64,000 nucleotides of DNA from Paenibacillus amylolyticus. GTDB taxonomy: Bacteria; Bacillota; Bacilli; Paenibacillales; Paenibacillaceae. Within the stretch, counting starts at the first letter, position 1, and each line of letters starts with the position of its first letter. The DNA is taken from NCBI RefSeq assembly GCF_029689945.1, contig NZ_CP121451.1:4278001-4342000 (forward strand). Direction: 5' to 3'. The notes under the pieces are model-generated. The model saw nothing but the letters and a program-made list of their open reading frames with translations, was not told the origin of the DNA and made no database searches. The translations under genes and the position numbers were made by a program. Positions 21,236 to 43,313 of the stretch are shown here, piece after piece.

Positions 21236-21268
21236 GTTATACCTCCTTCTGTACATCTTCTTTGTTGA

Positions 21269-21516: not shown

Positions 21517-23421
21517 CTAGTTCATCGCATATACCCAATAATGGAATTCATTCCATGCTCTGGCCTCTCCGTCCTGAATGAATTCGATTCGGATGTGCAG
21601 CTCCTTCTTGCCTCTGGTATAGGATTCAGGGATTACAAACTCATCCTCCAGCCATCGTTTATAGGGATTTCGGTCCGCCGTGTACCACGTTCTTTCTGTT
21701 ACTTTCACCCCATCTACATGAACGAAGGCCCGTTGTCTGCCTGTGATCTGATCACATCGCCGCCGCAGCCTTACACCTTTGTTGTCCTCCTTGATGAGGA
21801 TTGTGAATTCGCTATAACCATCTGTCTCATGACCTCTGTCACGAATTATGATATCGTCTTGGTCGCCTTCATAAGCTGAATCCAGAGTATAGTAACCGCG
21901 GCTGCCTTCTGTTTTGTAATCATGGTCCCTCTCCGATATCGGATCGCCAATATCCATTTCGTCCGTCAGTACCATTCCTGGTTCGTCCACACCATAGTAG
22001 AACAGAATGCCTGAATGTTCGAGATACTGGTTGTTATACTCGCCTGCTTCGATACCAAATACAAGCTCCGTCTGAAACGGATACCAGTCACCGCTGCACA
22101 TTCTGACCATGGACCATGGGTTGTCAGGGATTCCGTCATAGGCGCTGGATGGATTACATTCGGGCGGCGTGGGAAACCCCCAACCATAACATACCCAGCT
22201 CTCGGAACCGTCGCTTTCAACTTGTGGTGTCGCATTGCCGTCAATGTGGATACGGACATCGCCTTCACAGCTGATTGTACCCGGTTTAAGGGTAAAACCT
22301 GTTACGTGCCCAGCTACCATGTGTCCTCTTCCCTTGAGCTGACCGATGATGCTGTCCGACCCTAGTGTTGCCTTGCGTTCATAATATTTCGATGTGCGAA
22401 AATAACCGGTTCGACCCTTCTCATAAACAGCGTTTCGCTCTTCTGTAAATTCAATGTGTAATTCGGATAACAATACGTCATGGTTTCCTTTGTTCACCAG
22501 TTCAATCACCGCATGCTCCCAGTACGGCATGGAGAAATAGTTATAGAATGATCCGTCCCCTCTTCTTCCATGCGAGAGTACGCCGACAGGATTGAATCCA
22601 AGCTCGTTGCCGAAGAATACACCTATGGGGCACCAAATATCCGGTTGCTCATGTTTATCCCAGCTTGCTTTGATCCAGAGGTGTTGCAGGTCTTCGGATG
22701 TAAAGGAGTGGGGATCGAACGCAGCGCTTATCGAGGCGATACTGCCTTGACCCACCTCTTCCAGAATGGTTCGTTTCTCTCCTGCTTTAACGGCCAGCAT
22801 TTCGTAATATCGGGATTTGTATCTCACGGCTGTTTTGGGATCTTCACCAACCCGAGACCACATTTCGATCAGCGGGGCATAGTTTTCTTTTCCCGTGAAC
22901 GTAGATATTTGATCAGAGTCATCATAGGAATGATAAACGACATGGCCCCACCCGCCATCCCCTTTGGCTGCTCCTTTCAGTTGAATATCCGAAGTGATTC
23001 TGCATGATTTCTCAAAGGGCATAGGGACATAACTTCGAACAACGCGTATCGGTCCACGCCCATTGTCCTCGGGGCCAAGATAAGCGTCTGCCAGCGGAGT
23101 TACGAAAGGAAATTTACTTCCGAATTCGGAGGCCTTGATCACATATTGGGGTGTATCTTCGCCGTCAAAATAAAAGGAAAAGGTCGGTTCCGGACTTTCG
23201 GGATAACGGTGTTGGACAAAATTATAGATCCAGCCTGGGCCGCAATAATCAAAAATGACCCATTCCTCTCTGTCCTTATAAAGCCACCAGTCCCAGTCTG
23301 CATTTCGTCCCTGCTTGTCGATGCTTCCTTCATAGTGAACCTGCACGCCGTCTTTTAATACAGGAAGCAAGTCGAACTTCTCCATATTGCTTATCCCTTT
23401 AGGCTGTAAATGAGTCGTCAT
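21517..23421 (-). CDS. DUF2961 glycoside hydrolase (GH172)
   Basis: 634 residues. The N-terminal part has the DUF2961 pattern: NADWDWWLYKDREEWVIFDYCGPGWIYNFVQHRYPES, FSFYFDGEDTPQYVIKASEFGS, then DGSFYNYFSMPYWEHAVIELVNKG; the C-terminal half is a second jelly-roll with YYGVDEPGM and YTLDSAYEGDQDDIIIRDRGHE. GH172 enzymes act on difructose anhydride or on alpha-D-arabinofuranosides/fucofuranosides. No signal peptide, so intracellular. Start 23421 has GGAGG ten bases upstream; ATG 23385 is an alternative. Last gene of the polysaccharide operon, after fucI: release of a sugar that FucI can use (L-fucose or D-arabinose are both FucI substrates) is a reasonable inference. Confidence 0.82.
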   Translation of the reverse strand: MTTHLQPKGISNMEKFDLLPVLKDGVQVHYEGSIDKQGRNADWDWWLYKDREEWVIFDYCGPGWIYNFVQHRYPESPEPTFSFYFDGEDTPQYVIKASEFGSKFPFVTPLADAYLGPEDNGRGPIRVVRSYVPMPFEKSCRITSDIQLKGAAKGDGGWGHVVYHSYDDSDQISTFTGKENYAPLIEMWSRVGEDPKTAVRYKSRYYEMLAVKAGEKRTILEEVGQGSIASISAAFDPHSFTSEDLQHLWIKASWDKHEQPDIWCPIGVFFGNELGFNPVGVLSHGRRGDGSFYNYFSMPYWEHAVIELVNKGNHDVLLSELHIEFTEERNAVYEKGRTGYFRTSKYYERKATLGSDSIIGQLKGRGHMVAGHVTGFTLKPGTISCEGDVRIHIDGNATPQVESDGSESWVCYGWGFPTPPECNPSSAYDGIPDNPWSMVRMCSGDWYPFQTELVFGIEAGEYNNQYLEHSGILFYYGVDEPGMVLTDEMDIGDPISERDHDYKTEGSRGYYTLDSAYEGDQDDIIIRDRGHETDGYSEFTILIKEDNKGVRLRRRCDQITGRQRAFVHVDGVKVTERTWYTADRNPYKRWLEDEFVIPESYTRGKKELHIRIEFIQDGEARAWNEFHYWVYAMN

Positions 23422-23498
23422 ATGTCTGCAACCTCCGAGCCATGAATGAATACCTGTCCATATTCACAAAGCATTCTCAATCCTGTCATCCTCTCTGC

Positions 23499-25289
23499 TT
23501 AGCCATATAAAGGGCCATATGCAGCACAAGCACGATAGTCTGCACCCTCATGATCTTTTGTGCCAAATGCTGACCAGGCGCTAGGCCGGAAAATGCGCTT
23601 TGCTTCAACATTGTGCATGTTAACCGGAATGCGGAGTATGCTCGCAAGTGTAATCAAGTCACCTCCGATATGGCCATAGCTTACAGCACAATGGTTCGAA
23701 CCCCAGGCTTCCATCACGCTGTAGACGTCATCAAATATCGGATCACCTGCTACCCGATTCGGGACAAACCATGTCGTTGGCCACGTTGGCGTCGTTCGCA
23801 GATCCAGTCGTTCATGCACGTCCTCCGGCAGCTCCAACGTATACCCTTCCGCAAGCTGAAGCACCGGCCCCAGCCCGGCTATGAGGTTAATGCGTGCCAT
23901 GGTGACGGGCATCCCCCCACGGGTTGTATAATTGGTAGAATAGCCTCCGCCTGCAAATTGGTCCATATAGGTTGGTCGCCAGCTAACCGCATTGAGACAG
24001 GCATGAACGTCCTGTTCATCAATCTCCCAGTGAGGCTTCATCACGGGCTGACCGTCGCGAAGCTGCTCTCCCGTTCCATCAAGCGCCGCCGGTCCAGAAT
24101 TGATCAGATGTATGAACCCTGCCGCAGCCAGACCATCCGGCTGCCAGTCTGTTACGCGTTTCACGGCTTCCGGGCTCCAAAATGCACGAACATCCGCAAA
24201 AATCTGGGCAGTATGCGACAAATAGTGATTGAACAACATGGTGATGGCGTTCAGATTGTCGTTCTCGGTGGCGACCATGTAGGGTTCGCGAGTGCCATTC
24301 CAGTCGAATGAACTGCACAGAATAGCCTCCAGTACATCTGCACTGGGAAGGTGATCGGTCCATTCACGCTGTCCCTGAAACCCGGAAGCAATGGCATTAT
24401 AACCATACGCCTCTTCTTCGTATCCCATTTCGGCCAGTTTGGGATTGCCTATCATCAGATCACGCACAATCAACGTCATGCGAATGGAAGTTTTCCAGTT
24501 CTCCTTTTTGCTCTCCGGATCAATTTGAAGCGATTCCGGGTTGGGATCTGGCCCTTCCTTGCAATGAAGATCGGCCCAAGCCATAGCAGAGCGGAATTCC
24601 TGCTCGTCATAGATATGTTTCTCCAGCCTGCGCGTAACCTCAGTCATATCCACATAGGCGTTGCGCATGCCCAGATAACGCTGGTAGAAATCTTCATCTA
24701 CAATACAACCTGCGATGCCCATGGAGACGGAACCGATCGACAGATAGGATTTTCCTCGCAGCAGTGCAGCAGCCAGACCTGCACGGGTGAACCGGACCAG
24801 TTGATCCCGGACATCCTCTGGCAGTTTGCGTTCCTCCAGATTCTGAATATGTCTGCCATAGATTTTGAAAATGGGCAGACCTTTCTGGTTATGCGCCGCA
24901 TGCAGCGCGGCCAGGTAGACCGCACCGGGCCGTTCGGTGCCATTGAATCCCCAGACGGCGTGCGGCAAGGTTGGGTCGGTTTCCATCGTTTCAAGTGGAT
25001 AACACCAACCGTTTGCTACCGTGACCAGGACGCCGACACCTTCCTTCCTGAATTGCTCGGCACAACGGGCCGCTTCGCTCATTCCGGAGATGCATGTATC
25101 AAAGATGACAACCTGCACGGGGGAGCCGTCCGGGTTTCGGAGAACGGAGGTAATCGCAGCAGCAGCTTCGTGCGCCAGTTCCATCGTGCTTTCAGCCAGC
25201 GCAGCCTTTACAAGCTTGCGGCGATCCACGATGGGGCGAATGCCGATCTTTGGAAATCCGCTCTCATAACGATGCTTCATATCCGTCAT
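23499..25289 (-). CDS. fucI: L-fucose isomerase
   Basis: 596 residues, collinear with E. coli FucI (591). [14 protein letters not shown] at the N-terminus, [57 protein letters not shown], the active-site region [17 protein letters not shown] with [11 protein letters not shown], and the C-terminal [26 protein letters not shown] and [11 protein letters not shown] are all present. It converts L-fucose to L-fuculose (and D-arabinose to D-ribulose) in the cytoplasm with Mn2+. Fuculokinase and aldolase genes are not in the window. Intact frame, directly downstream of the GH78 gene in the operon. Confidence 0.95.
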
Positions 25290-25314
25290 CTGTATTTCCC
25301 CTTTTCTGCATATT

Positions 25315-28030
25315 TTATTGGATCGTATGGATCGGGATGGAGAAGATGTGTTGTCCCGGGTTCAATGTGTGAGAACGGCGTAGATTCACGGCATTTACCA
25401 TATCAGCAGGCACGACAAACGTGGCTGTGGTTCCTTCAGGGATCGTCACCTCCATATGAAGACCTGCCTCGTCTTTTTCCACGCTACTGCAATGAGCCCA
25501 TGTGCCGTCCTGAGCGAAGCGCTCACCCTTTCCAACTTCGAGGGGATCATCGGCTCAATCCATATTTTTTCGTAACCGGGAGAGTCGGGCCTAATACCAG
25601 CCAGTCGCGTGTAAAAAGAAACACTGATGCCCCCGAACATGGCGTGGTCATGGGAATGCATGCCACCTTTCTCGCTCCATTGCTCCCAGAGCGTCGTAGC
25701 TCCGCGCTCAATCTGGTATCCGAACCCGGGATATTCCTTCTTGCTCAGAAGCTCATAGGCAACATCGATGTATCCGTAGTCCGCCAGCACGTCAATCAGA
25801 TATCTGGTGCCATAGATACCGGTATGAAGATGACCGCCATGTTCCTCAATAGCTTCCACTAGCCGCTTTGCAGCTGAGGGCCGCTCTTTGACCGGCACCA
25901 TGCCAAAAGCGAGCGGCAGCAGCTGAGCAGTCTGGGAACCGCTACTGTAAACGCCGTTCCCCACGTCCCAATGGCGATGAAAGGCCTGGTTGATATCCCG
26001 AGCCAGCTTCGAATAATGTTCATGATCTGCGCTCATGTCCAGGATCATCGCCGTTTCGGCAACAATGGACGTGATTTTGTAGTAAATACTTGTATTCACC
26101 AGTTCGACTTCGTGGAAGTAGTTCTCCCAACCATCATCATTGGGAGGACACCAGTCCCCAAAGCCATCCTTCACCTGATGGTCTGGCCACTCCTGATGCA
26201 GATGGTCAATATATGCTTTCATGGACGGATAACGCTGGCGCAAGATATCCAGATCGTTATAATGCTGGTAGAGACGCCAAGGAAGAAAGACTTTGTCTCC
26301 GCTCCAGTCCGGGTTGGTCGTGCTTTCTTCAATATCTCCGAGCCATTTGCGATAGTAATTCTGCATATTGGAATGGTGCATGCCGGCTTCCTCCACAACA
26401 GCGGAATCCATGAGACAAGGCGTACGTTCATCTCGCTGACAGCAGTCCGTGGGTATGCTGACCAGATTGTTGAGGTACGACCATCGAATATTGCTGTAGA
26501 GCTGATTGAGTCCTTCATCCGAACTTTCAAAGCTGCCTGCCGGCTCTACATCTGCATGAATGGGAATGGCCTGAATGGAGAGATGATCTGCCTCACCGCT
26601 GACTTCCACATAACGGAACCCGTGATACGTGAAGCGAGGTTCATAACGTTCTTCCGTCTCCCCACGGAGAATGTATGTGTCGGTTGCTTTGGCATTTCGA
26701 TTCGTCCAGGGATCAATGTTGCCTTGTTCATCGACCAGCTCGCTGTATCTCAGCATCACTTGACTGCCTTCCGGGCCTGTTACCTGAATGCGAACCCACC
26801 CTGCCATGTTCTGACCAAAATCGTATACGTCCACACCTGGACGTGGCCTTAGAACAGCGATGGGCTCGACCGGGTTGTGAGGTACAACAGGAGGTTGTAT
26901 GTTCGCTTCAAGCTTGCCGACAGGTGGTTCGGCAGTTACTGCCCTCGACCACTTTCCGTTTTCAAGAAATCCCGGTTGATCCCAACCGATGTGCTCCTGT
27001 CGTGCATCATAGGACTCTCCGTCATAGATATCATTGGAACGTATCGGGCTTGACGCGAATGACCAAGATTCATCGGTTATAATCGTACGCTTGCTGCCAT
27101 CCTCAAACTGGAGGTCCAATTGCATGATAAAGGCTTTATCCTGATTCCATTTCCATCCCCACCGTGAATAATTGAAATGGTAACCATTCCCGAGCCACAC
27201 GCCGAGTACGTTATCTTTGTCTTGAAGCAGATGGGTCACGTCATAGGTGTCATAGAGCATTCTGCGGGAATATGGCGAATTGGCTGGAGCCAGAACTCGG
27301 TTATCTGCCCGGTTCCCGTTGATGCAGAGCTCATACCAACCTACCGAATAGATGCGCAATCTGGCTTCAACTGCGGACGACGGCAATTCAAATGTTTTGC
27401 GAAACAGAGGGCTGTCAACAGGTATGGGTGCCTCACAGATCGACAGCATATTTTCCGCAAGCACAAGCCCATTCCCCGAAGGGCTAATTGTATCTGTGGT
27501 AAAATGAGTCGTCTGCGGATCATAAAAGCGGTTGGAGTACAGCACGCAGCCATCACTCCCGCTGAGCTTTAGATCACGGAAGGTTGCCTTTTGCCCGACT
27601 GTCGTCCGGAATGCAATCGTTCCTTCATAATCCGCTGCCATGCAGCGATGCGTGTAATGTTCATCAATGGATACCTGCCATTCTCCGGCTTCCGTACTTA
27701 TCTTGAGTGATAGACGTGGAGGAAGTGTGTGCAGTGCAGGTAAAACCATCTTCCCAGAACCTGGCGTACGTCTTCTTCAACGCGGTATATGCACACGTGT
27801 GTCTGCTGTGCATCTTCTTCAGGCTCAAGCAGTTCAATACCACAGTGATTGCCTTCGTCGCGATAACCGAACAGAAATGCTGCACCGCCTTCTTCCACGC
27901 TGAGAATGACCTCCACCTGATATGAAATCCAGTCATGAGGCTGGACTACGGGGCGTGTAATCCACTGGGCACACCATTCGTCAGATCCTGATTTTTCCTT
28001 CAATTCCGCCATATTCTCCATGGATGTCAT
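25315..28030 (-). CDS. GH78 alpha-L-rhamnosidase, two frameshifts
   Basis: About 905 residues after mending. Start ATG 28030 with GGAAGGAG. N-terminal beta-sandwich to about residue 100, then the rhamnosidase N domain ([66 protein letters not shown]), the Bac_rhamnosid middle domain ([28 protein letters not shown]) and the six-hairpin catalytic barrel with [18 protein letters not shown] and [18 protein letters not shown]. Frames join near 27751 ([11 protein letters not shown]; one A lost) and near 25474-25478 ([12 protein letters not shown]; five T where six are needed), after which the protein runs on to IHTIQ and a stop at 25315. Cleaves terminal alpha-L-rhamnose, cytoplasmic. Both lesions fit sequencing error. 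Confidence 0.85.
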
Positions 28031-28051
28031 GTTGTCGCTCCTTCCTGTCAG

Positions 28052-31000: not shown

Positions 31001-31079
31001 TTTCATCTGAACGGTAATATGAGATGTCTGTCATCGCGCTAACTCTCCATTCTTGATCAGTTTCGCTTTGCATGTGCAC
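28052..31079 (-). CDS. GH2 glycosidase (beta-mannosidase/glucuronidase type), two frameshifts
   Basis: About 1009 residues after mending. Starts GTG 31079 immediately at the stop of the upstream GH78-like gene (TGA-GTG coupling). N-terminal sugar-binding domain with DWLEVSVPTTVQKALVDQGLLEDPHWNTN, typical of beta-mannosidase-like GH2; then FEGIDYSGTVFLNGASLGHHQGMF, immunoglobulin domain, and TIM barrel with FIKGANWCWPDAML, MLRAWGGGLVESDEFYDLCDEKGIMVYQEF and the acid/base motif NHPSLIMWGGGNEN. Frames join near 30500 (YGFRRTRVECKEWWF; one A lost on the plus strand) and at 29376-29381 (six C where seven are needed, within MWGGGNEN). Probably removes a beta-linked hexose or uronate from oligosaccharides in the cytoplasm. 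Confidence 0.83.
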
Positions 31080-34000
31080 TCATAATGTCCTGTGTACCAG
31101 TACTGGTTGGTATCCTTCAGGTGCTTCCAATACAATTGCAACTTCTGTCGGAGCACATACCTCCAAATAAAACGTGGGCTCGCTACCTTCCTCTTCCCAA
31201 ATCTCCCATTTCACGTCGATCCTTCCGTTGCCAGGAAGAGGCACAGCTCCTTTTGCCCATTGCAGATGGCCAGGTTGGGGGGCAACCTTAACTTGTGTCC
31301 AACCGTCTGCAATCGGGCGAACCCCGAGCACGGATGTTCCCAAAAAGTAACCTGGTGCTGCCGACCAGGCGTGGCAATGACTGCGTGTCAGGTATTTCGG
31401 ATGAGGCCGATTCTCGGCAAATCCCGGATACATCTCCCAGCAAGTGGTCGCCTCATGTTTCACCATTTCCCCAAACTTCTCTCTCATGTCCCGGAGCATT
31501 AGATCCGTCTTGCCGTGCATCACCAGCGCTTCATAATAGAAGAACGTCATGAACGGACTTCCTATGGCTACAAAATCTTCAGGTGGCGATGTTAAATACG
31601 CGTTGAGCTTCTCCTGTCGCTCATCAGCTGCAATGCCGGTGACCAGCGCCATCACCTGCGTCTGCATACTATAGGTGCTGGAAAGAGAGCCATCGGCATG
31701 GATGCAGTCCATATAAGCCTGCCGATCCTCATTCCATAGATAACTGTTTATGGCATGGGCTACTCTTTCTGATGTGGAACAGTAGTACGGGCTGTCTTCT
31801 GCGCAGCCTGCCAATTCGGCCAATTGGGCGGCATCTGCCAGCGTGCGCGCAAATATCGCATTCTGATGGGTGACCGTTCCGTCGTTCGGCTGCTCCAATG
31901 GTGCCCAGTCCAGCAGATTCCAGGCTTCAATGAACAATAGTCCTCTGGCATCGATATGTGAAATATAGTGATCAAGCGTGAACTTTACCTTTGGCCAGAT
32001 TTTCGCTGCAAAGTCCCTGCTACCTGTATGATGAACATATTCAAGGCAAGCGGTGACCCAGAAAAACGTCCAGTTCGGAATTACGCTGCTCCAGCCGCTG
32101 GGCACCTGATTCACATAGAGCGGCGATTGCCGGCTTGATCCCGGAACAAGCTGCAGACCATGTTTTACAATATCCGTTGCACCGAATAGATAGTAGTTCA
32201 CGAGTGCTTCATTACGGCTGTCGCCAACCCAAAATACCTGTTCATACGTGGGACAATCCACAAATGTATCTTCCATGCACAGTAAGGTGGTATGCTTGCT
32301 GATCTCCCAAATGTCATTCAGCATTGCGTCCGAACTATGGAATCGGCCGATCTCTGCCACCGGATAGTTGCTTTGCACAAGACTTATGCCAAACAGTCGT
32401 ACTGGTCTCGCATTCCCATGTATGGTAAGCATGAGATAACGAAGTCCGCGCCGAATTGGCGATTCGTAGCGTTGTCTGCCTTCGCGGCATACGTAGCGAA
32501 GCGTATTATCCACCCCAAAGGTATCCTGTCGCCAGTCGCCGTCCATATACTCGAAGCCATACGCGTCGATGACGGTGCCTTCCCCCGCATCGACCTCGAA
32601 TCGCAGATAGCCCGACCATTCGCGGCCAAAGTCCAGAATCAGCTCTATGCTCCTTCCGCCAGAGCCTGTCGGCACGATTGCCGGCTTCCGATTGGCGACG
32701 CATACCAGCTGCAAGTCCACAGGAACGGGACGCGTCTGCTCCTGCATCTTCCAGATGCTGGACGCAAAGATTGAAGCTTCCGAGCTAAGCCTCTCGGGGA
32801 ATGGCTTCATCCAGCCGCGGATTGAAGCAAGCTCAGGGACGGAAGCCAAGCTGCGGCATCGCAGATATACATCGGCATCCGGAAATGATTTCTCGTCCAG
32901 AGGCTGACTACCGCCAAAGCCCTGATATGCACGGATGGGATCACGATCCGGCTGGTGGTCGATATGCACGAGGGTGGCAAACGGACCAATCAGGACAAAC
33001 GGTGTGTTGCCCATTGGTGCATCATCGAATGGCGATACAACCGTAAACGGAACATCGCAGTCGATTCCAAAGTGCAACCCTCCGCCATGATCCTGCCCTG
33101 CCAGCTCGATTAGCAGCAGATTCTCTCCCTGCCGCAACCTAACTCGCTGAAGCCTGCGCGGCCGTTCTCCCTCCATATCTGATGCAGGGTAATATGAGCC
33201 GTTAAGCGTGATGCCGCGCAGAGCATGGAACGCGCTGAAAAATCCGACAACTGCTTCGGCTTCGCCACTTGCCCGAATGACCGCTGCGACATAACCGGCA
33301 AAGGATACCGGATTGGCGTGCATCCGACTTGTCGGCTCCATCGCTTCGCGTACATCGAGCACATGCGTCCAGGACACGAGAGATGCTTCTTTCAATGATT
33401 CCACTCGCACAGGCCATACTTCTTGCTCCGTCAGTTCCGGAATATCACTTGCGACCAAGCATTCCCATGGCGCATCGCCAGGCGTGCCGATGATGCGGGC
33501 AGGAGTCCAAATGCCATGCTCTTCGAGCGGCAAGGTGCCAACTTCTTGCCAACGATCATTCCAGCAGCGCGCATCCATCTGTTCGGCAAAGCCAAGCTGA
33601 CAGGACATGCGTGCCGCCCTTCGTTCATATCCATCATGCAGAGCGGTCTGCCAGGATGCATCCGTACCCACGATGAGTTCTTTTCCCAGGTAACTCCCAT
33701 CAGCCTCATAGCGAACGGACTCCAGTTGAGCGAGAAGCCCGCCCCTTCCCGGCAGATACGCAAACGTAGCTACACCATAGCTGATAACAAGTACAGCCAG
33801 CATATTACGACCGGAATGCAGCAGATGGCCCACTTCATGCACGTGATAGTTAAGTTCAAAAGGCCAAGAGCGATTGGGTCCTCTTCCGCACAGCACTCCG
33901 TTGACATATAACACATATCGGGCATCTGCTGTGATGGTTACCTCAGCGCTTCCATGGTCCCCATGATGCCATTCGAATTCCCGGCGAAAACAACGCCATT

Positions 34001-34130
34001 CGTTGCGCGGCCAGTCCTCGCCTTCTCCCCAGATCCATGAGGCACGCCACGTGAATGTTTCCGTCTGAACAGTGCTTCCTTTCCGTTCCGTCGGCAGATC
34101 CCTCCCGCCAGTCGATAAAATGTGATCCAC
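31080..34130 (-). CDS. Bacterial alpha-L-rhamnosidase-like protein (GH78 type, six-hairpin fold)
   Basis: 1016 residues, GTG start at 34130 with GGGAG upstream. The N domain WRASWIWGEGEDWPRNEWRCFRREFE...ITADARYVLYVNGVLCGRGPNRSWPFELNYH is the substrate-binding beta-sandwich seen in GH78 and related proteins. The middle domain includes ELILDFGREWSGYLRFEVDAGEGTVIDAYGFE, and the (alpha/alpha)6 barrel contains CMEDTFVDCPTYEQVFWVGDSRNEA, WNLLDWAPLEQPND and TCWEMYPGF. This differs enough from the gene at 25315 that the two probably act on different linkages. No signal peptide. Intact frame; translationally coupled to the GH2 gene. Confidence 0.82.
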   Translation of the reverse strand: MDHILSTGGRDLPTERKGSTVQTETFTWRASWIWGEGEDWPRNEWRCFRREFEWHHGDHGSAEVTITADARYVLYVNGVLCGRGPNRSWPFELNYHVHEVGHLLHSGRNMLAVLVISYGVATFAYLPGRGGLLAQLESVRYEADGSYLGKELIVGTDASWQTALHDGYERRAARMSCQLGFAEQMDARCWNDRWQEVGTLPLEEHGIWTPARIIGTPGDAPWECLVASDIPELTEQEVWPVRVESLKEASLVSWTHVLDVREAMEPTSRMHANPVSFAGYVAAVIRASGEAEAVVGFFSAFHALRGITLNGSYYPASDMEGERPRRLQRVRLRQGENLLLIELAGQDHGGGLHFGIDCDVPFTVVSPFDDAPMGNTPFVLIGPFATLVHIDHQPDRDPIRAYQGFGGSQPLDEKSFPDADVYLRCRSLASVPELASIRGWMKPFPERLSSEASIFASSIWKMQEQTRPVPVDLQLVCVANRKPAIVPTGSGGRSIELILDFGREWSGYLRFEVDAGEGTVIDAYGFEYMDGDWRQDTFGVDNTLRYVCREGRQRYESPIRRGLRYLMLTIHGNARPVRLFGISLVQSNYPVAEIGRFHSSDAMLNDIWEISKHTTLLCMEDTFVDCPTYEQVFWVGDSRNEALVNYYLFGATDIVKHGLQLVPGSSRQSPLYVNQVPSGWSSVIPNWTFFWVTACLEYVHHTGSRDFAAKIWPKVKFTLDHYISHIDARGLLFIEAWNLLDWAPLEQPNDGTVTHQNAIFARTLADAAQLAELAGCAEDSPYYCSTSERVAHAINSYLWNEDRQAYMDCIHADGSLSSTYSMQTQVMALVTGIAADERQEKLNAYLTSPPEDFVAIGSPFMTFFYYEALVMHGKTDLMLRDMREKFGEMVKHEATTCWEMYPGFAENRPHPKYLTRSHCHAWSAAPGYFLGTSVLGVRPIADGWTQVKVAPQPGHLQWAKGAVPLPGNGRIDVKWEIWEEEGSEPTFYLEVCAPTEVAIVLEAPEGYQPVLVHRTL

Positions 34131-34164
34131 GGCTGTATCAACTCCCGTTTGACTGAATGTTTTA

Positions 34165-34200
34165 AAAGAAAAGGAGCTAAAACTTCACAGCTTTAGCCCC
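34165..34200 (-). terminator. Intrinsic terminator/attenuator after the binding-protein gene
   Basis: On the minus strand GGGGCTAAA...TTTTAGCTCC forms a 10-bp stem and is followed by TTTTCTTTT. It sits between the sugar-binding protein and the first GH78-like gene, an arrangement that keeps ABC component expression above that of the hydrolases. Confidence 0.75.
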
Positions 34201-34235
34201 TCTTCGTGACGCTTGTCGTTGCGAGCGAAGTCGTA

Positions 34236-35983
34236 TTACAGCCCGTGAGCTTGACGAAGCCGCTGTACTTCGGCGTTATACCAGGCGGTAAACTCATCTG
34301 CTCCTGCTTTTTGAATGCCGCAAGTGCCGCCTGTTTATTTGCTTCGAATGCCTGTTCATCCTTGGAAAGAATTACTTTGGCCGCTTCGCGCGCTGCCAGT
34401 TCTTTAAGTTCTGCTTCCTGTTTCTTCAATTTGTCGTCCAAGGTTACGCCTGGAACGGTGTTCCGCTGTACGATCTCCTCGTCCGTCATGCCGTCCATCC
34501 AGCTGGTGAACGTATTGAGTTTGCCTTGATCGATCAAATTTTTGAATACCTCTCCCGAGTAAGAAGCGCCATAGTGTTCTGCAAAATCTTTTTCAAGCGG
34601 GGTGGCCGCTTTGGACAGCGCCTCCTCCGAGGTAAAGAGGTCGACCGGCATTTTGTCATCGGGATTGACCATGTCACCGCCCAGACCGATGATGTTGCGA
34701 TCCAGTGAAAGTCCGGTGGCTTCGTATGGAGCTCCGCCTGCTGCTTTCAATGCGAGTGTTTCGTCCGTAAGTGTCGGTTTGCCGTCTACCATCTTCCAGT
34801 GCTTGCCTTCTACGCCGTTATACATGGTGCGTGCACCTTCATAGGAGTAGATATAATTGAGGAATTCCATCGCTTTTTCAGGATGTTTGGACGTTTTGGA
34901 TATGCTGTAGGCTTTATCCTGCCATCCAAGTGGATTGACTGCACCCGTCCAGGCCAGTTTGCCGGCAGGCACAACCAGATATCCTTTGCCATCCTTGGCA
35001 TGCTGTGCATTGAAATCTCCCATCGCCCAGGTGGCGGGGCCAACAACGATCTGTCCTGCAGTTGCCTTAGCCATGTAGTCATTGTTCTTCATCGTCAGGG
35101 AATCCGGATCGAGCAATCCTCTGCGTTGAGCCTTATTATAGAAGTTAAGGGCAGTCCAGAAGTTGGAGGACTCGTCAGTCAAGTTGCTGATGAAATCGCT
35201 GCCGCCAACTTTGGCTGCAGTCAGGTCGCTTGTCGTGCCTACATTCTCGGTAAAGATGATTGGCGGAATCGTATAAGGCCATAATCCCCAATCTTGCCAC
35301 ATGGACACGCCGTACACTTTTTTGCCGTCTTCGGTCTGCGGGTGCTTTTCCACAATTTTTCCTACAACGTCCAGCAAGTCATCCATTGTGGCCATTTCCG
35401 GGGTGCCAATTTCCTTATACCAGTCCCAACGAATCGTCGGGCCTATGGTGATTGGTGCAATGGAAGTACCCGGTTTGGATTGCACTTGGGGAGGCAGGAA
35501 ATACAGGTTTCCGGTGCCGTTGCTCCAGTTCTTTTTGCTGTATTCGACCACTGTACCGATGTTCGCCGTAATGTCTTTGCCGGATGTAGCGAGCAGATCA
35601 TCGAGCGGAACGATTAGATCCCCTTCAATCAGTTGTTTTTGATATTTGTTCACGTCGGTACGTACCAGATCGGGCAGATCGCCGCCAGCAAGCAACACAT
35701 TGAATTTGTTTTCGTCTGCTTCAACGTATTCAATTTTGACACCGATCTTCTCGGCAATAGCCTGGGCCACTTCGTTGTTCTGCTGCGTATTCCACTTGGA
35801 GCCGGTTTCCATGATGAGCACTCGCAGCGTCACGAGGTCTTTGTCCGAGCCGGTATCTGATGAACCGGTTTCGCCCGTGCTGGTCTGGCCCGTTCCCGAG
35901 CCGCTGCCCGTACAGGCTGCCAGCAGCAAGGACGTCATCATGAGCAGTGCAATTACTTGGCGGAACGACTTTTTAGTTCTCAT
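34236..35983 (-). CDS. Extracellular solute-binding lipoprotein of a sugar ABC transporter, frameshifted at the C-terminus
   Basis: About 582 residues. Signal peptide and lipobox MRTKKSFRQVIALLMMTSLLLAAC followed by a Gly/Ser/Thr linker. The body is an LplA-type family 1 binding protein: LVTLRVLIMETGSKWN, IGVKIEYVEADENKFNVLLAGGDLPDLVRTD, and NPEKAMEFLNYIYSYEG-type C lobe (here SKHPEKAMEFLNYIYSYEGARTMYNGVEGKHWKM). The open frame continues to 34193, but with one base restored in the T run 34308-34312 it ends AAFKKAGADEFTAWYNAEVQRLRQ and stops at 34236, the usual family ending. Works with the two permeases upstream to import oligosaccharides; the ATPase (MsmK/UgpC type) is encoded elsewhere. Confidence 0.88.
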
Positions 35984-36061
35984 GTCATAACCCTCCTGTT
36001 TCTTCTTCTATAATTATCGGCAATTGCCGGATAATCCGGTGTGGTTGCACCTTTTACAGTC

Positions 36062-36982
36062 TTAACCCTTGACGGCTCCCATCATAATGCCTTTGACAAA
36101 ATACCGCTGCAGCATCGGATACACCAGGACAATAGGCAGCGTGACAAGCATCGTAATGGTCATTCGAATGGACTGCGGTGTGAGCGTTCGGACAACATCG
36201 CCGCGGGTCAACTCATCTGTCGTCATGTTGGACAGGTTACTCGACTGGTTCAGGAAGTTGTAGAGTACCAGTTGCAACGTTTGCAGCTTCGGATTTTCCA
36301 CCAGGAAAAAGTTGTCGAACCAGGTATTCCACTGACCTACGGCGGAGAATACGGCAATGGTGGCGATAATTGGCATCGACAGCGGGAAAATAATGCTGCG
36401 ATAGATCCGGAAGTACCCGGCCCCATCGATCTTCGCCGATTCCTCCAGGGATGCGGGTAGCTGTTCGATGAACGTTTTGATTAAAATGATGTTAAAGCCC
36501 GACATCGCGCTTGGAATGATATACAGCAGGAAGTTGTTCTGCAATCCATACGTTTTCATCGTCAGATACCATGGGATAAAGCCTGCATTGAAGTACATTG
36601 TGATCAGTACAAAACGGTATATGATTTTGCGGAATGGCATCTCTTCTTTGGTAATGAGATAAGCAAAGAAGGAACAGCTGAACACCGTAATTAACGTTCC
36701 GAGCACGGTCCGGGAGACACTGACAATGGCAGCATCCATGATGCCCGGCAATTTCACCGTCGCTTGGTATGCTTCAAGGGAGAAGCCGGCTGGCCAGAAA
36801 TATACCCCTTTCTGAACCTCGATGGGATCGCTGATCGAATAGATGAAGATATAATAGAACGGATAGATGGTGATGATGACAAGCAAGGACAGTACGATGT
36901 AATTAAAAAGGGTGAACGTAAGGTCTTTCCAGTCGGTATGGCGGACGGGACGAAGCGTCTGTCCTGCGGGTTGTGTGCGCAT
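36062..36982 (-). CDS. Carbohydrate ABC transporter permease, LplC type
   Basis: 306 residues, ATG 36982 after AAAGGAG. Six hydrophobic segments; the EAA loop reads SAKIDGAGYFRIYRSIIFPLSMPIIATIAVFSAVGQWNTWFDN, typical of CUT1/YtcP-LplC permeases. The N-terminus (LTFTLFNYIVLSLLVIITIYPFYYIFIYSISDP) and the conserved C-terminal LVYPMLQRYFVKGIMMGAVKG are intact. It pairs with the permease at 37008 and the binding protein at 34236. Membrane located. Confidence 0.92.
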   Translation of the reverse strand: MRTQPAGQTLRPVRHTDWKDLTFTLFNYIVLSLLVIITIYPFYYIFIYSISDPIEVQKGVYFWPAGFSLEAYQATVKLPGIMDAAIVSVSRTVLGTLITVFSCSFFAYLITKEEMPFRKIIYRFVLITMYFNAGFIPWYLTMKTYGLQNNFLLYIIPSAMSGFNIILIKTFIEQLPASLEESAKIDGAGYFRIYRSIIFPLSMPIIATIAVFSAVGQWNTWFDNFFLVENPKLQTLQLVLYNFLNQSSNLSNMTTDELTRGDVVRTLTPQSIRMTITMLVTLPIVLVYPMLQRYFVKGIMMGAVKG

Positions 36983-37007
36983 GTTTGTTTTGCTCCTTTC
37001 CCTGGGG

Positions 37008-37949
37008 TCAGACGATGCCTTGACCGCGAACTTTCTTGGATAGAATGTTGACGCTGAAGAGCAGCAGAACGCTAATTACGGTTTTGAAAATGCCCACAGC
37101 CGTCGAGTACGAGTAGTCACCTGTCACCAATCCGAGCCGGTACACGTAGAGATCAAGCACTTCGATCCGGTCTGCAATCATGACGTTGCTGAATACGAGA
37201 TATTGCTCAAACCCTGCGGACAGCAGGTTGCTGACGGAGAGCAGCAAAAGCACAATGAAGGTCGGCATGATGCTTGGCAACGTAATGTGCCAGATCGTAC
37301 GCATGCGCCCGGCGCCGTCCACCTTGGCTGCATCGTACTGTTCGCTGTCGATGCCAACGATGGCAGCCAGATAGATGATGGCGCTCCATCCTGCGGACTT
37401 CCACAGCAGCAGCAAGGTTTGCACCGTCCATACCCGGTCATAGTTACCGAGAATATCCACGGGTGGACTGCCGATTCCCGTTTTCATCATGATTGAATTG
37501 ACGGCTCCCTCCGTACTGAACATGCTGAATGCGAGGGAAAATACGATGATCCAGCTGATATAATTCGGCAGTGTAGAGACGGTCTGCACCAGCCTTTTGA
37601 ACCAGCCGGAGCGGACTTCCGAGATCAGTATGGCAAGCAGCATCGGTACAGGGGCGGTTGCAATGGACAGCAAGCTTAGTGCCAGCGTGTTAGCAAGTAC
37701 GGGCCCCATCCGTGAATCATCCAACATGTTGCGAAAATTTTCCAGCCCTAGAAAAGGAGTTTGTTGAAGCGGAATGCCTGGTTTGTAATCAAAGAATGCG
37801 TAGATCCATCCGAATAAAGGTACGTAGCTGAAGGCCAGCGTAAACAGTACAAATGGTGTGGCCAGAAGCAGGAGGTGTATGCCGTCCTTGCGATTCAGCT
37901 TGCCGGTCCTTTGGGTTACGGCTCTGTTCAGGGTCTTGGTACGTTGCAT
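37008..37949 (-). CDS. Carbohydrate ABC transporter permease, LplB type
   Basis: 313 residues, ATG 37949 after AAAGGAG. GIHLLLLATPFVLFTLAFSYVPLFGWIYAFFDYKPGIPL at the N-terminus, six membrane segments and the EAA loop YDAAKVDGAGRMRTIWHITLPSIMPTFIVLLLLSV. First gene of the transporter-hydrolase operon. Upstream (37950-38203) lie a cre-like site and repeated TTCAAG elements, the probable control region for CcpA and the adjacent YesN-type regulator. Confidence 0.92.
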   Translation of the reverse strand: MQRTKTLNRAVTQRTGKLNRKDGIHLLLLATPFVLFTLAFSYVPLFGWIYAFFDYKPGIPLQQTPFLGLENFRNMLDDSRMGPVLANTLALSLLSIATAPVPMLLAILISEVRSGWFKRLVQTVSTLPNYISWIIVFSLAFSMFSTEGAVNSIMMKTGIGSPPVDILGNYDRVWTVQTLLLLWKSAGWSAIIYLAAIVGIDSEQYDAAKVDGAGRMRTIWHITLPSIMPTFIVLLLLSVSNLLSAGFEQYLVFSNVMIADRIEVLDLYVYRLGLVTGDYSYSTAVGIFKTVISVLLLFSVNILSKKVRGQGIV

Positions 37950-37996
37950 ATGAATTTCTCCTTTGTACGTTTGCTTTCCGTATTGGCTTATTCATA

Positions 37997-38010
37997 TGAT
38001 AACGCTTTCT
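37997..38010 (-). promoter_or_regulatory. cre-like site of the transporter operon
   Basis: On the minus strand AGAAAGCGTTATCA fits TGWAANCGNTNWCA at 13 of 14 positions, about 50 bases before the first permease start. Confidence 0.6.
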
Positions 38011-38018
38011 TTATCTCC

Positions 38019-38103
38019 CTTGAATGAAAGATCTCCGGATCTGCTTGAAAAAACAAAGCTGCCCCGCGAGCCGACTTGAACAATTTTGAGGCTCCGCTTG
38101 AAC
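38019..38103 (-). promoter_or_regulatory. Repeated TTCAAG elements upstream of transporter operon
   Basis: Minus-strand GTTCAAG at 38103-38097 and 38081-38075 (22 bases apart), with TTTCAAG at 38050 and ATTCAAG at 38025. Same orientation relative to the gene as the GTTCAAC repeats before 43314. Likely AraC/YesN-type binding sites. Confidence 0.45.
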
Positions 38104-38203
38104 GAATAGACAGTGCACCAATATGAAAAAAACGCCCTCATGTGCTGCCTTTCGGCGAAGCTCACGAGAGCATGGATCATTCGAAGCCGCAGCTCCTCTT
38201 CTA

Positions 38204-40022
38204 TCATCGATGTACAGGCAAGGTAACGATGGCCTCAGCGCCCTGATCGGCCGGAACAAAACGAATGCCGAACTGCGGTCCATAATACAAACGAATCCGT
38301 TTATTGACGTTATTCAGTCCGATTCCGCTCCCGCCAACAGTAGATTTGGGCGATTCCCCCTTGGCCAGCTTTTCGTTTAACTCTAAGATGCTCTCTGCAT
38401 CCATTCCAACGCCGGAATCGGTGACCCTCAGTATCAGACGTTCCTGGTCGACCGAGGCCGTAATTCCGATCTGGATGGCAAAATCTTCGCTCTGTCTGCC
38501 GGAAGCAATGGAATTTTCCAGCAGCGGCTGCAGGATAAAACGCGGCACCTGACAATCCATCCACGCTTCATTCACGTCCATTGTAAATGTAATATTATTA
38601 TTGAATCGCATGTTAATGATCTTCAGATAATTGTCCAAATACGACAGTTCGTCCCGCAGAGAACACATGGAGTCTTTGCTGGAGAATACGGGGCGCAAAA
38701 TATTGCCCAGTGCTACAATCGTATTTACGATGTTGTCCGCCTTCACAATGACAGCCATCCAGCGGATCATGTTCAAGGTGTTGTACAGGAAATGCGGATT
38801 AATCTGATACTGTAATGCCTCCAGTTCCAGCTCCCTTTTTTCTCCTGAATCTCATTGTTTTTGTCCACCAGTTCTACCATGCTGAGCGACATCTCATTAA
38901 AGCGGCGGATGACCGTGCCCAGCTCATTATTCGGAACGTGATCGACGGTAACCCCGAGTTCACCTCGGCTCATGTCTTTCATTTTGCTGGACAATTGGTT
39001 GAGCGGTTTAATGATTTTGCGAAGCCAGAAATAGGAGGCTATAAATATCGCGAACACACTAATCGTGAACACGAGTACAAGCATTCGTTGAACGCCCAGA
39101 ATCTGGTCAGCGTACTGACTGAGTGGAATTTCCTTCAGCAGGTACCACCCGCCGTCATGGAGTTTGTAATATACAACCTGCATGCTGCGTCCGGCCTTTT
39201 CGTCATCCAGGCTTCCATAGGCACCGTCCGTCAGCTCCGCTCCTGGTGTGAAGTGACTCTGCGTCCCTACCCGATCCGCCTCACTGGCCGAAATGATTGT
39301 TCCGTCAGCGCTGGCGATATACATGTCGCCTTCTTCACTGTTCAGCGCCGTAGCATAGATGGATGATAAATACCGTTCATCGATATTAAAAATCAGCGTG
39401 GCGCTTGTAGTTGGATCATAGATGGCACGCGTGCCACGCATCAGGCTGATCAGATAACCATCGTCTTCTCCGGTCAGATAGGGATTGTAGAATGATTTTT
39501 TGATCCCGGAATGGATAACCAGATGAGGGTACTGTTCGAGCGTTTGACGGAAGGGCTCGGAAGTAAAGAAACTCTGCTGCCATGCGTCCCGATCGTAAAC
39601 GAGGGTCCGCTTCTGACTACCTCCTACTGCCCCGAGATTATCCGCCGTAATATAAATCGAGTCAATATAGTTGTAGTTGTCGATGAAATCGGCAATGACC
39701 CGCTGCACGTCGTTTTTCGATTCGAGAAATTCCTCTTCCGTCTTCTCCGAAATTTTGTACAAAAACTGCTGAATGTGATCATCCCGCAGAAAAAGCATGG
39801 ACAGGCGATCGATCTCTTTCACCAGGCCGCCTATGTTATGGTCAAGCTGTTGGAATTGCTGGTAGAGCAACCGTTCGTTCTGGATTTTGATCATGTTCTG
39901 CATAAAGGAATAAATAAAATAAGAAGCCCCGCCAGTACGGCGAGGCTGATGACCATAATATAGAGAATAAGCTGTGTTCGGAGCTGTCTGGAGACAAACA
40001 GGGATTTGACGGATGTTCTCAT
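38204..40022 (-). CDS. YesM-type sensor histidine kinase, two frameshifts
   Basis: About 606 residues. The true start is ATG 40022, which overlaps the stop of the response regulator (ATGA) and gives MRTSVKSLFVSRQLRTQLIL followed by a membrane helix YIMVISLAVLAGLLILFI. A large extracellular sensor domain follows (about 40-300), then a second helix (MLVLVFTISVFAIFIASYFWL), HAMP (KIIKPLNQLSSKMKDMSRGELGV), and the His_kinase domain LEALQYQINPHFLYNTLNMIRWM with ATPase box FILQPLLENSI, VTDSGVGMD, GGSGIGLNNVNKRIRLYYG. One base is lost near 39913 (within TTTATT-type sequence) and one in the T run 38836-38841. It should sense an extracellular sugar and phosphorylate the YesN regulator. Confidence 0.87.
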
Positions 40023-41637
40023 TCATGGCACCCTCTGTCTTTGAGCGTCGTTTGGCGCCGGTATTCGTTCGGATTAAGACCCGTAATTCTTTTGAATACT
40101 TTGCTAAAATACGTATACTCGGGTGAAAAGCCGACCAGAGCTGGCACATCGGAAGAGCGCAGTTGATTTTGGGCAAGCAGGTCCTTGGCGCGTTCAATCC
40201 GATAACGGTTCACATAATCAATATAAGTGATCTGCAGCTCTCTTCGGAACAGGTTGCTGAGATACCCCATGCTTAGACCTACATGGTCTGCAACCATCTG
40301 GAGACTGATGTTTTCGGTATAATGACGTTTGATGTATTCAATGGCGCGGGTAATCTCATCACTCATTTGTAAGCGCTTGCGAATTAAATCAACCAACGTG
40401 TCAATATAGATAACGACCTGGTCAAGCATATCCGGCATCGTGTCACAGATTTCCAACTGTTCGGTCATGCTAAGCAGCAGCGTTTTTCATTGTTATGATC
40501 ATATACATTCGTATTAATCCATTGCACAAACTGGTAAATCGTAATCTCCATGGATTTTCGTTCTTCGTTCATGCCGCGTTCAATCTCATCCAGGAATTCG
40601 TCGTATTCTTTCTGTTTGAGCGAAGGAAGCAATTCCCGAAGAGGTGTATGGCTTCGAAGCCGTTCAAGTCGTTCAAGCACGCCCGAAATGTCGGCACGCC
40701 CTGCTCCTTGATGATGTTGTCCGGGGCCGGTGATGAATTTACGCTGCAATGCGCGTTGTGCCTCGGCATATTGTCTCGGCAGCGAGCCATATCCCCCGTT
40801 GATGCTGCTGATCCCGAAGGAAACAGTACTGTTGAAATAATGACGAATTGTATCCTGAACATGTTCGAGCAACTGACGAAGTTCCTGCACGATGGATTGT
40901 TCGGACAATATATCGGCATAATGCAATACTAGCGCGTAATGCCGGTCATTAATCTGAACGGCCTCTCCCCTTTTATAACCGGACATGATCTCGCTTAAAA
41001 TGTTTAACAGCGACATCTTGACCAAGTGACCGTGTTCATCCCGAAAACGTTCCTTGAGCGAGGCATACCGGTCCACTTCCATTACGCACACGACGAGACG
41101 AACGGGCGAAAGGCGCAGACCGCTCTCCGAGACGAATCTGGCGAATTCCTGCGTCGAGAAGATGCGATAGAACATAAAATCTTTAAACATCTTTTCCTTC
41201 ACAAGCTCCATATCCGGGGACGCCGTCCCAGTCCTTTGCGATTGAGGCGGGGTGTGCTGCTGATCCAGCTCTTCCCTGACCCCTGTTAGTACCTGCTCAA
41301 TCTCTTCTTCGGTCATGGTTAGTTTAAGAATATAACTGGACACATCCAGTGTCAGTGCTTTGCGAGCCAATTCAAATTCTTCCAGACATGACAGCACAAT
41401 GACGCGTGTATGTTTGTCTTGCTTGCGGATGTTGGAGATCAGCTCCATTCCATCCATTCTGGGCATACTGATGTCGGTAATGACCACGTCGGGTTTCTCG
41501 CGTTCATAATAATCCCATGCGGCCAGGCCATCCGGGAAATCGGCCGTAACCTCCAAGCCGAATTTGCTCCATTCGACGGAATTCTTGAGTCCGATGCGAA
41601 CAAGCATTTCATCCTCTACGATCATCACCTTATACAT
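40019..41637 (-). CDS. YesN-type response regulator with AraC output, frameshifted
   Basis: About 539 residues after mending. Receiver MYKVMIVEDEMLVRIGLKNSVEW with phospho-acceptor D55 (VVITDISMPRMDG) and a conserved Lys in SYILKLTM; a 250-residue central region; then AraC double HTH: AIEYIKRHYTENISLQMVADHVGLSMGYLSNLFRRELQITYIDYVNRYRIERAKDLL and PALVGFSPEYTYFSKVFKRITGLNPNEYRR. Frames join at NEKTLLLSMTEQLE, where the T run 40483-40487 has five bases instead of six. Three bases after the GH140 stop and overlapping the kinase by ATGA, so GH140-regulator-kinase form one operon. It likely activates the transporter operon and the secreted glycosidase. Confidence 0.87.
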
Positions 41638-41640
41638 GCA

Positions 41641-43002
41641 TTAGACCCCCTTCAAAATCAATATCCAGTCATTCCCTCTTCCGCTGGTTGGGGCTGCAAA
41701 ACGTTTAATGCCTTGATTCGGTATTGTAGAATCTGAACCTGAACCTGAATCTGGAGAAACCTTGGTTGTAACTCCTGTTCTGGGGCAAAACCACAGGGCA
41801 TTTGTTTTCTTGCCCTCAATATACCCCATGACGACGTCGACGTACAAGCCATTTGGCAGATAAATGTAAGCGTTATATTTACTCTGTGCAGCAACGGCAT
41901 GATTTGCACCTGCACGGTTCTGATGAATCAGGTTCGAATGGGGTCTCCAATCCGGGCCCAGCTCCCCTTCGAGCAATGCACGCACATGGCGCATCTGCTC
42001 TGCACCCGGACGATGCAGTGCTTCCCGCCAGGGCATAATGAAATAATCCCCTTGGCTGTTCGATTCCATGAGATCATGCGGGCCTTGGTACATTGACCAT
42101 ATGGAATGGTGTCCATACGTATGACCCAGCGCACCGGCAAATAACGCGTAATACGCAGCCTTCCTCACATCCGCCGCATCAAAATAGCCTTGTTCACCCC
42201 GAAAGCCGACAGGGATATCCTCGTAACATGGCTCGGCATCCAGCGTGGGTTTTGCCGGTTTACGCTCATAATCTTGCTGCACACGTCTATCATTGGTAAT
42301 CTCCCGCTCCCCGTGTCCGGATTGAATCATGTTGAAATCAAGCCATGACTCATCATGAAGTTGGCGAGAAGATGAATCGCATCCCGGCGGATGGAACGTC
42401 ATAAGCTGCCGGGCACCACCTTGTTTCAGCCCCTGTGCCATGGACGTGACAATGTCGAAATGACGCTTCGTCTCCAGAGGACGATCTCCCCCAGTACCCA
42501 GATAATCTGAGGATATTCAGCGTATCGCTCTCCCAGCCATTTTCCGTAATCCAATGCCGTTTCCGGGAAAATATTTCCGGACCCTTCCCCCACTTTTGGT
42601 TGAACTTGTCACCCCAAGTCGGAAGCAGCGCAACATACAGCCCAAGGCTGCCTGCAAGCTTCAGCAGGGCGTCCACATGATCCCAATAGGAGTAAGGTCC
42701 ATCGCAATCCGGACGGATTGGTTCAGGTTGACCGTTCTCATCCATATGAAAAGGCAGTCTGCCTTGAGCATTGCCCGTTGTGGTACCGCTGAACTCGGCC
42801 AGCAGCACGGTTTGAATAACCGTGAATCGTTGGTCGGCCCTTGTACGAAGGTACAGTTCACTCTCTTCCCGGTTCAAGCGATGCAGAAGTTCCCAAGCCG
42901 TGTCACCGAGCCAGAAAAAGGGACTCCTTCCGATGTTTCCAGATAGCGACCGTTGTCGGAAACCCGAAGCGCGGTGATGGCAGAGTGTGGATTGGTTGAC
43001 AT
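41641..43002 (-). CDS. GH140-type apiosidase-like glycosidase (DUF4038), three frameshifts
   Basis: About 454 residues after mending. Start ATG 43002 after GGGAGGG: MSTNPHSAITALRVSDNGRYLETSEG, then (one T restored at 42915-42919) VPFFWLGDTAWELLHRLNREESELYLRTRADQRFTVIQTVLLAEF. The frame then gives [48 protein letters not shown]...IIWVLGGDRPLE after restoring one base near 42563 and one at 42488-42492, then ARQLMTFHPPGCDSSSRQLHDESWLDFNMIQSGH and a C-terminal beta domain. This is the DUF4038/GH140 pattern; characterised members release apiose from rhamnogalacturonan II. No signal peptide. First gene of the operon with the YesN/YesM pair. Apiose specificity is inference. Confidence 0.78.
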
Positions 43003-43139: not shown

Positions 43140-43187
43140 GTTCAACCCGGCTTCGTTTTGTTCAACCTCAGTCGTTATTTTTTCAAC
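43140..43187 (+). promoter_or_regulatory. Three phased GTTCAAC repeats
   Basis: GTTCAACC at 43140, GTTCAACC at 43160 and TTTCAAC at 43181: direct repeats 20 and 21 bases apart, two helical turns, 127-174 bases before the secreted glycosidase start. Matches the form of AraC/YesN operator arrays. Confidence 0.55.
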
Positions 43188-43220: not shown

Positions 43221-43234
43221 TGTAAACGCTATCA
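43221..43234 (+). promoter_or_regulatory. cre site (perfect consensus)
   Basis: TGTAAACGCTATCA agrees with TGWAANCGNTNWCA at all positions, 80 bases upstream of the secreted glycosidase, so CcpA repression is likely. Confidence 0.8.
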
Positions 43235-43313
43235 TTTTAAGTGCCGCAAGTCGACTGACTTAAACCACCTCATGGAGTAACCCTTGCGGTAAACCATGAA
43301 AAGGAGAGCTGAG

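Follow-up and report, generated by a model that had tools for sequence, protein, structure and literature searches.

Which glycan is served by the run of carbohydrate-utilisation genes at positions 21517-43002 of a 64-kb stretch of the Paenibacillus amylolyticus genome (contig NZ_CP121451.1; the whole stretch is called the window below)? The original prediction described a sense-import-degrade locus with a GH140 glycoside hydrolase (GH), which our analysis supports, and proposed rhamnogalacturonan II (RG-II) or a related pectin as its target. Judging from gene content and its conservation, we consider it fairly likely that this is a regulated import-then-digest locus for a rhamnose-containing heteroglycan, conserved in Paenibacillus and its kin. 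The set of 11-12 genes is conserved and single-frame in several relatives.

Gene content, conservation and regulation

We assigned the locus genes to families using Pfam and NCBIfam, compared them with solved structures, and used the single-frame copy of a related genome (G016) for analysis. All eleven genes named in the original prediction are present on the minus strand, in the order and over the range that it gave. A twelfth, divergent gene was overlooked there; it is found in all eight genomes that carry the locus. The genes are as follows.

43296-46859, plus strand: secreted clan GH-A glycoside hydrolase, divergent gene; signal peptide, modular; broken in the window
41641-43002, minus strand: GH140 (PF13204 apiosidase domain plus PF12904); frameshifted; no signal peptide seen
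40019-41637, minus strand: YesN-type response regulator (receiver, GGDEF_2-like, AraC helix-turn-helix); frameshifted
38204-40022, minus strand: YesM-type sensor kinase (dCache below cut-off, HAMP, His_kinase, HATPase); frameshifted
37008-37949, minus strand: LplB-like ATP-binding cassette (ABC) permease; PF00528 (BPD_transp_1)
36062-36982, minus strand: LplC-like ABC permease; PF00528 (BPD_transp_1)
34193-35983, minus strand: lipoprotein substrate-binding protein; PF01547 (SBP_bac_1); lipobox by eye; frame shifted near the end
31080-34130, minus strand: RhaB-type GH78 alpha-L-rhamnosidase; PF17389, PF21557; Protein Data Bank (PDB) match 2okx, 1030 bits
28052-31079, minus strand: GH2, beta-mannosidase-like; frameshifted; best PDB match 5n6u, a beta-mannosidase, 186 bits
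25446-28030, minus strand: GH78 alpha-L-rhamnosidase; frameshifted; best PDB match 6i60, 507 bits
23499-25289, minus strand: L-fucose/D-arabinose isomerase (FucI); NF008220 957 bits; PDB 3a9r 864 bits
21517-23421, minus strand: DUF2961 protein, accessory (5 of 8 locus genomes); N-terminal part, GH172-type double jelly roll, CBM35/6-like C-terminal domain

The importer consists of the two permeases and the lipoprotein binding protein, and no ATPase gene lies within the locus. Two labels of the original prediction can be sharpened. The protein called GH78-like is a GH78 enzyme, more exactly of the RhaB type. The claim that no hydrolase is secreted holds for the cluster hydrolases, whose N-termini lack a visible signal peptide when judged by eye, and fails for the divergent gene.

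We searched 119 genomes, 72 of them of the genus and including the window's own (G000), and found the locus in eight (G000, G016, G020, G023, G036, G040, G044 and G069), with identical gene order in all eight. Orthologues of the secreted enzyme (at least 87%), GH140 (at least 78%) and the locus FucI (at least 86%) are, at those levels, confined to these eight genomes of the 119. Four genomes of another family (f7: G092, G097, G099 and G101) hold the parts of the locus spread over several contigs. We also collected 45 named loci with a DUF2961 profile and checked their neighbourhoods by tblastn. Ten of these (L041, L042, L045, L046, L049-L053 and L079), all from Paenibacillus, Cohnella or Saccharibacillus, contain either the sensor/transporter core or the run of enzymes seen here; in the other 35, including five labelled Paenibacillus (L043, L044, L047, L048 and L075), no core was found in the bases covered. 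In P. phyllosphaerae and three Cohnella loci (L045, L051, L052, L079) the secreted gene lies inside the same gene run. Since the order is the same in eight genomes and the core recurs in Cohnella, Saccharibacillus and other Paenibacillus, the arrangement is not one of chance. A search of the open-licence literature, outside which most subscription journals fall, returned no description of this gene combination. Upstream of the orthologous sensor-transporter genes on contig C2 of G092 (L144, L138) lie genes for GH31, GH95 and a metallo-beta-lactamase-fold protein, and homologues of the last are likewise upstream in G097, G099 and G101.

The window copy itself is damaged, with breaks or frame shifts in seven of the 12 genes: the divergent gene, GH140, response regulator, kinase, binding protein, GH2 and GH78. 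In G016, G023 and G040 every locus gene is a single frame, while FucI is broken near its end in G069 and GH140 near its start in G020. The binding protein has an out-of-frame end, with 559 of 582 residues aligning to G016, and one break scan passed this gene as unbroken. Two rows of that scan were dropped because one was a spurious join and the other a short match that overlapped, and its flag on LplB was attributed to an over-long start in G016. Syntenic comparison with G016 revealed two further broken genes outside the locus (7510-9196 and 47636-48079) and eight unbroken ones. It is very improbable, in our view, that the window locus is a decaying pseudogene cluster. The higher share of damaged genes inside the locus (7 of 12, versus 2 of the 10 judged outside it) speaks for decay, but breaks are found outside the locus as well, three relatives hold single-frame copies that are mostly more than 90% identical, and the estimated completeness of the window genome is lower (95.8%, versus 99-100% in most relatives listed). 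Because two genes beyond the locus are broken too, we rejected decay as the principal explanation and regard assembly error as the more likely source of most of the window breaks. The breaks at 7510-9196 and 47636-48079 point to indel errors across the assembly.

Four candidate regulatory sites accompany the two gene groups, including two that resemble the catabolite-responsive element (cre).

43221-43234, no strand assigned: perfect cre-type site, palindromic, between the divergent genes; conserved in all eight genomes
43140-43165, no strand assigned: TTGAAC direct-repeat pair, 20 bp apart, candidate regulator site; 8 of 8 genomes
38076-38103, minus strand: GTTCAAG direct repeats, two copies 22 bp apart ahead of the LplB-like gene; 7 of 8 genomes have the pair and G036 a single copy
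37997-38010, no strand assigned: one-mismatch cre-like site ahead of the LplB-like gene; 7 of 8 genomes

The site between the secreted gene and GH140 is the only perfect match in the window to TGWNANCGNTNWCA, which we take to be the cre consensus; in mononucleotide-shuffled versions of the window, perfect matches averaged 0.58 with both strands counted. The locus is probably catabolite-regulated. When the corresponding G016 regions were shuffled 2000 times (dinucleotide shuffles for TTGAAC), at least two copies of the repeat arose in 51 shuffles for TTGAAC and in 36 for GTTCAAG. Since shuffles reach two repeats, it is the conservation of these pairs and not their number that carries the argument.

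Predicted enzymes and the sugars they suggest

The G016 orthologue of the GH140 protein matches PF13204 with 377 bits (cut-off 26.5). It is 43% identical over 442 residues to PDB 8t9w, named an apiosidase by its depositors, and 33% identical over 454 residues to 3kzs/5msy, which we take to be BT1012; close homologues bear the name GH140 in NCBI. Aligned by eye with the solved enzymes, it has both carboxylates that we assume to be catalytic in GH140, the Asp of GGD and the Glu of a D-x-EP-x-YE stretch. Membership in family GH140 is therefore firm. We built a tree of 34 rows, with 24 picked from the 120 homologues listed and the PDB sequences entered as their aligned stretches only. The window protein lies on the same side as 8t9w and 3kzs/5msy of a 100/100 split that sets apart a DUF4038 clade linked to AptA, so it does not cluster outright away from solved apiosidases. 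Within that side, the two solved enzymes sit in an eight-row subgroup (91/87), 3kzs on a long branch, whereas the window protein sits in a small group of its own. With the window protein outside the subgroup of the solved enzymes, its specificity is not firm.

The AptA-linked DUF4038 clade occurs in other genomes of the genus and is 25-31% identical to the locus GH140. Of the 12 same-genus genomes in which AptA is matched at 48% or above, 11 carry a DUF4038 gene of this clade within about 10 kb of the match. Full-length AptA matches at that level occur in 22 of the 119 genomes, including the f7 genome G099, with one partial match in G015; the matches listed include none from the eight locus genomes. 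A 40% AptA homologue is present in G040 and G069, and the G000 matches rank below those listed (best E 2.4e-12). PMC13001218 cites the work on the known D-apiose catabolic pathway. If the locus GH140 did release D-apiose, the cell would need a route other than AptA. DUF1537 kinases are present in 8 of 8 locus genomes, so oxidative apiose routes could serve; being present in all eight, these kinases proved uninformative as an indicator of apiose use.

Five AptA-linked loci from other genomes of the genus, chosen for the closeness of DUF4038 and AptA (L165-L169), all contain AptA (48-50%), AptB and AplK. They also hold a gene for an isomerase-like protein of 487-503 residues (Fucose_iso_C 25.6 bits, cut-off 29.3, in the one tested), a phosphotransferase system (PTS) EIIC-type gene, confirmed in one locus, and in some a GH1-type gene. 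These loci look like PTS-driven systems for apioside use, with the FucI/AraA-like protein as candidate D-apiose isomerase.

The 1016-residue GH78 protein matches PDB 2okx, which we take to be RhaB of Bacillus sp. GL1, over residues 27-1008. RhaA is encoded in all 12 genomes searched for it, including the eight locus genomes, so L-rhamnose should be usable by these strains, and the two GH78 enzymes together with RhaA therefore fit with rhamnose use. The best solved-structure matches of the GH2 protein are beta-mannosidases.

FucI exceeds the cut-offs of two NCBIfam equivalogs (NF008220, 957 versus 775 bits; TIGR01089, 912 versus 850), and its PDB match 3a9r is a D-arabinose isomerase. It is 60% identical to a separate paralogue, the genome's second FucI (G000:C1:4027395), which adjoins genes for a LacI regulator and an FGGY kinase and, recognised by eye, a class II aldolase gene with a broken frame. 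We rejected FucI as proof of a fucose target, given its ambiguous substrate and the second FucI with its own kinase elsewhere; the locus FucI may serve D-arabinose. With 100/100 support, the locus FucI groups with those of two Cohnella loci (L046, L050) and the four f7 genomes (L119-L122). There, FucI is accompanied by genes for Gfo/Idh, Zn-ADH, FGGY kinase, GPI-type and 2-hydroxyacid dehydrogenase proteins, together with a 3-epimerase-like protein, a PTE-family lactonase-like protein and a 330-residue protein without a Pfam match; no recognised aldolase is present in this operon. Its composition is no less compatible with a pentose, for example D-arabinose, than with L-fucose. Nothing in the window's genus closely matches the epimerase-like gene (31% at best, in G009; E 3.9e-7 or weaker in locus genomes among the matches listed), and for this reason the Cohnella/f7 pathway cannot be transferred to the locus. 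DUF4185 (GH183) genes at G092:C20:11193-18252 and G097:C37:9302-10240 are on the same contigs as the FucI operon, about 55-60 kb away.

The DUF2961 protein is a multi-domain protein of 634 residues with a double jelly-roll fold. Its E386 and E407 are invariant in 45 sequences and align to the EGD/EGE and TED motifs of solved enzymes. PMC8605356 describes the catalytic Glu pair of GH172 and, in alphaFFase1, Trp267 and Asp292 of the minus-1 subsite; aligned by spacing to the Glu pair, these correspond to Ile383 and Ser408 here. The GH172 label of the original prediction is thus apt for domain, fold and Glu pair, but the protein belongs to a divergent clade for which the label predicts no sugar. 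As proof of a D-arabinan target we rejected it, because the gene is accessory, the subsite residues are changed and GH183 is absent from the eight locus genomes. The long DUF2961 clade is widespread and without a characterised member: relatives occur in Bacteroidota, Planctomycetia, Lentisphaerae, Hydrogenedentes, Clostridia-type and Verrucomicrobia records (L054-L063, L071), and some adjoin TonB-receptor, GH5, sulfatase or KDPG-aldolase-type genes.

The divergent secreted enzyme, in its G016 copy, has a signal peptide, a catalytic domain at about residues 30-490, a CHB_HEX_C/Fn3_assoc region and then repeated modules. Its fold is a (beta/alpha)8 barrel with a side beta-sandwich and Glu residues near strands 4 and 7, of the GH30/GH39-like kind in clan GH-A; of the expected Glu positions, one is invariant and one nearly invariant across 48 sequences. 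Pfam reports no catalytic glycosidase domain in this protein up to E 0.1, the best PDB phmmer match has E 0.018, and the fold matches shown are 10-18% identical. PF11790 is matched by two of five homologues, the better at 1.2e-5, and there are homologues in Actinobacteria. In G099, an 806-residue protein with a weak GH106 match (L137:6459-8879) lies directly downstream of a second secreted GH-A homologue. The secreted enzyme and the DUF2961 clade of the GH140 locus are probable new enzyme families.

Candidate substrates and a working model

We propose that the secreted clan GH-A enzyme would make the first cuts in a rhamnose-containing heteroglycan outside the cell. The lipoprotein would bind the resulting oligosaccharides, the permeases would import them with a shared ATPase, and GH78, GH2 and GH140 would trim them inside the cell. 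L-rhamnose could then enter the genome's RhaA pathway, while FucI would isomerise one further product, perhaps L-fucose, D-arabinose or L-galactose. The sensor kinase may detect a sugar or the loaded binding protein, with the response regulator switching on both promoters and CcpA repressing both on better carbon sources. Several points weigh against this scheme: no locus enzyme is known to release a sugar that FucI would use, the three locus genomes without the DUF2961 gene still keep FucI, the cytoplasmic location of the trimming enzymes rests on signal-peptide absence judged by eye, and the direct repeats are weak alone at the shuffle counts given above. A plant or microbial rhamnose-rich polymer with an apiose-like furanose fits the predicted enzymes, RG-II being one candidate of several.

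That RG-II or its side chains A/B are imported, with GH140 cutting apiose, the GH78 enzymes rhamnose and FucI handling L-fucose or L-galactose, we consider unlikely. RG-II-specific families are GH137-139 and 141-143, and the 12 locus proteins all belong to other families or folds. By Pfam, none of the 12 is a uronidase, lyase, unsaturated-uronyl hydrolase or fucosidase; missing GH families in the VIA lists were not counted as evidence. The nearest GH88/105-type gene in G000 is about 105 kb from the locus, and both GH95 genes of that genome lie away from it. The original prediction had matched the gene set to the sugars of RG-II. GH140 and the rhamnosidases are present, but FucI does not point to fucose in particular, the GH2 protein is beta-mannosidase-like and no uronate enzyme accompanies them. 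The lack of AptA at the 48% level counts against RG-II as well. In its favour, GH140 shares a clade with 8t9w and 3kzs/5msy and has homologues named GH140, two GH78 enzymes and FucI occur together, the genes directly upstream of the orthologous sensor-transporter set in G092 include GH31 and GH95, and G016 has a GH88-type match, weak at 64 bits, some 8.6 kb past the secreted gene. On balance, RG-II as the substrate is not supported.

A D-arabinofuranose or fructofuranose glycan, from which DUF2961 would release D-arabinose for FucI acting as a D-arabinose isomerase, is quite unlikely. Trp267 and Asp292 of the characterised enzyme are replaced, the DUF2961 gene is missing from three of the eight locus genomes that nonetheless keep FucI, and a search for GH183 found it in none of these eight, whereas two of the four f7 genomes have it. 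More doubtful still are small plant glycosides, such as apiosyl- or rhamnosyl-flavonoids or saponins, in place of a polymer. GH140 enzymes act on apiosides. GH78 enzymes are likewise described as acting on such compounds, but the large secreted hydrolase with several C-terminal modules and the lipoprotein-dependent importer point to a polymer, and the separate PTS-linked DUF4038 set with AptA, AptB and AplK in the genus is a better candidate for small apiosides.

Relation to known systems

The RG-II polysaccharide utilisation loci of Bacteroides thetaiotaomicron, to which BT1012 (PDB 5msy) belongs, are a known RG-II system. The locus studied here shares with them rhamnosidases and a GH140 of the same broad clade. 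Among its proteins there is no SusCD, RG-II-specific family or uronate enzyme; it has ABC import, YesMN-type regulation and a GH140 without a visible signal peptide instead. Should RG-II prove to be the target, the locus would represent an ABC-based equivalent to those of Bacteroides. The YesMN/LplABC-type carbohydrate loci of Bacillus and Paenibacillus are closer in design, with a sensor kinase, AraC-type regulator, LplB/LplC-like permeases, a lipoprotein and exo-enzymes without signal peptides, and the locus differs from these by its enzyme combination and the divergent secreted clan GH-A enzyme. Its 1016-residue GH78 matches RhaB of Bacillus sp. GL1 over the range given above, but no gellan lyase or GH88 enzyme is among the locus proteins.

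According to PMC10115798 and PMC10509167, D-arabinan PUL42 (a polysaccharide utilisation locus) of Dysgonomonas gadei and a Microbacterium arabinogalactanolyticum cluster combine a fucose-isomerase-type or putative isomerase gene with DUF2961/GH172 genes, as does the present locus. The Microbacterium cluster, as described there, is also alike in its putative ABC importer and exo-enzymes without a signal sequence. Set against these D-arabinan systems as so described, the eight locus genomes have no GH183, the 12 locus proteins include no GH116, the window DUF2961 belongs to another clade, and rhamnosidases and GH140 are added.

Two things are new in the locus, the family of its secreted clan GH-A enzyme and the long, divergent clade of its DUF2961 protein, and the genetic context of both clades makes their substrates testable. 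More tentatively, the locus could represent an import-first Gram-positive route for a complex rhamnose/apiose glycan so far linked to no known degradation system, with a new GH-A family, a new furanosidase-type specificity in DUF2961 and a dedicated FucI for a sugar rarer than L-fucose; we think this possible rather than probable. Beyond the locus, at 19699-21256 of the window, genes for a DUF2239 protein and an alpha/beta hydrolase follow, which did not turn up within the conserved set in the stretches of the relatives compared.

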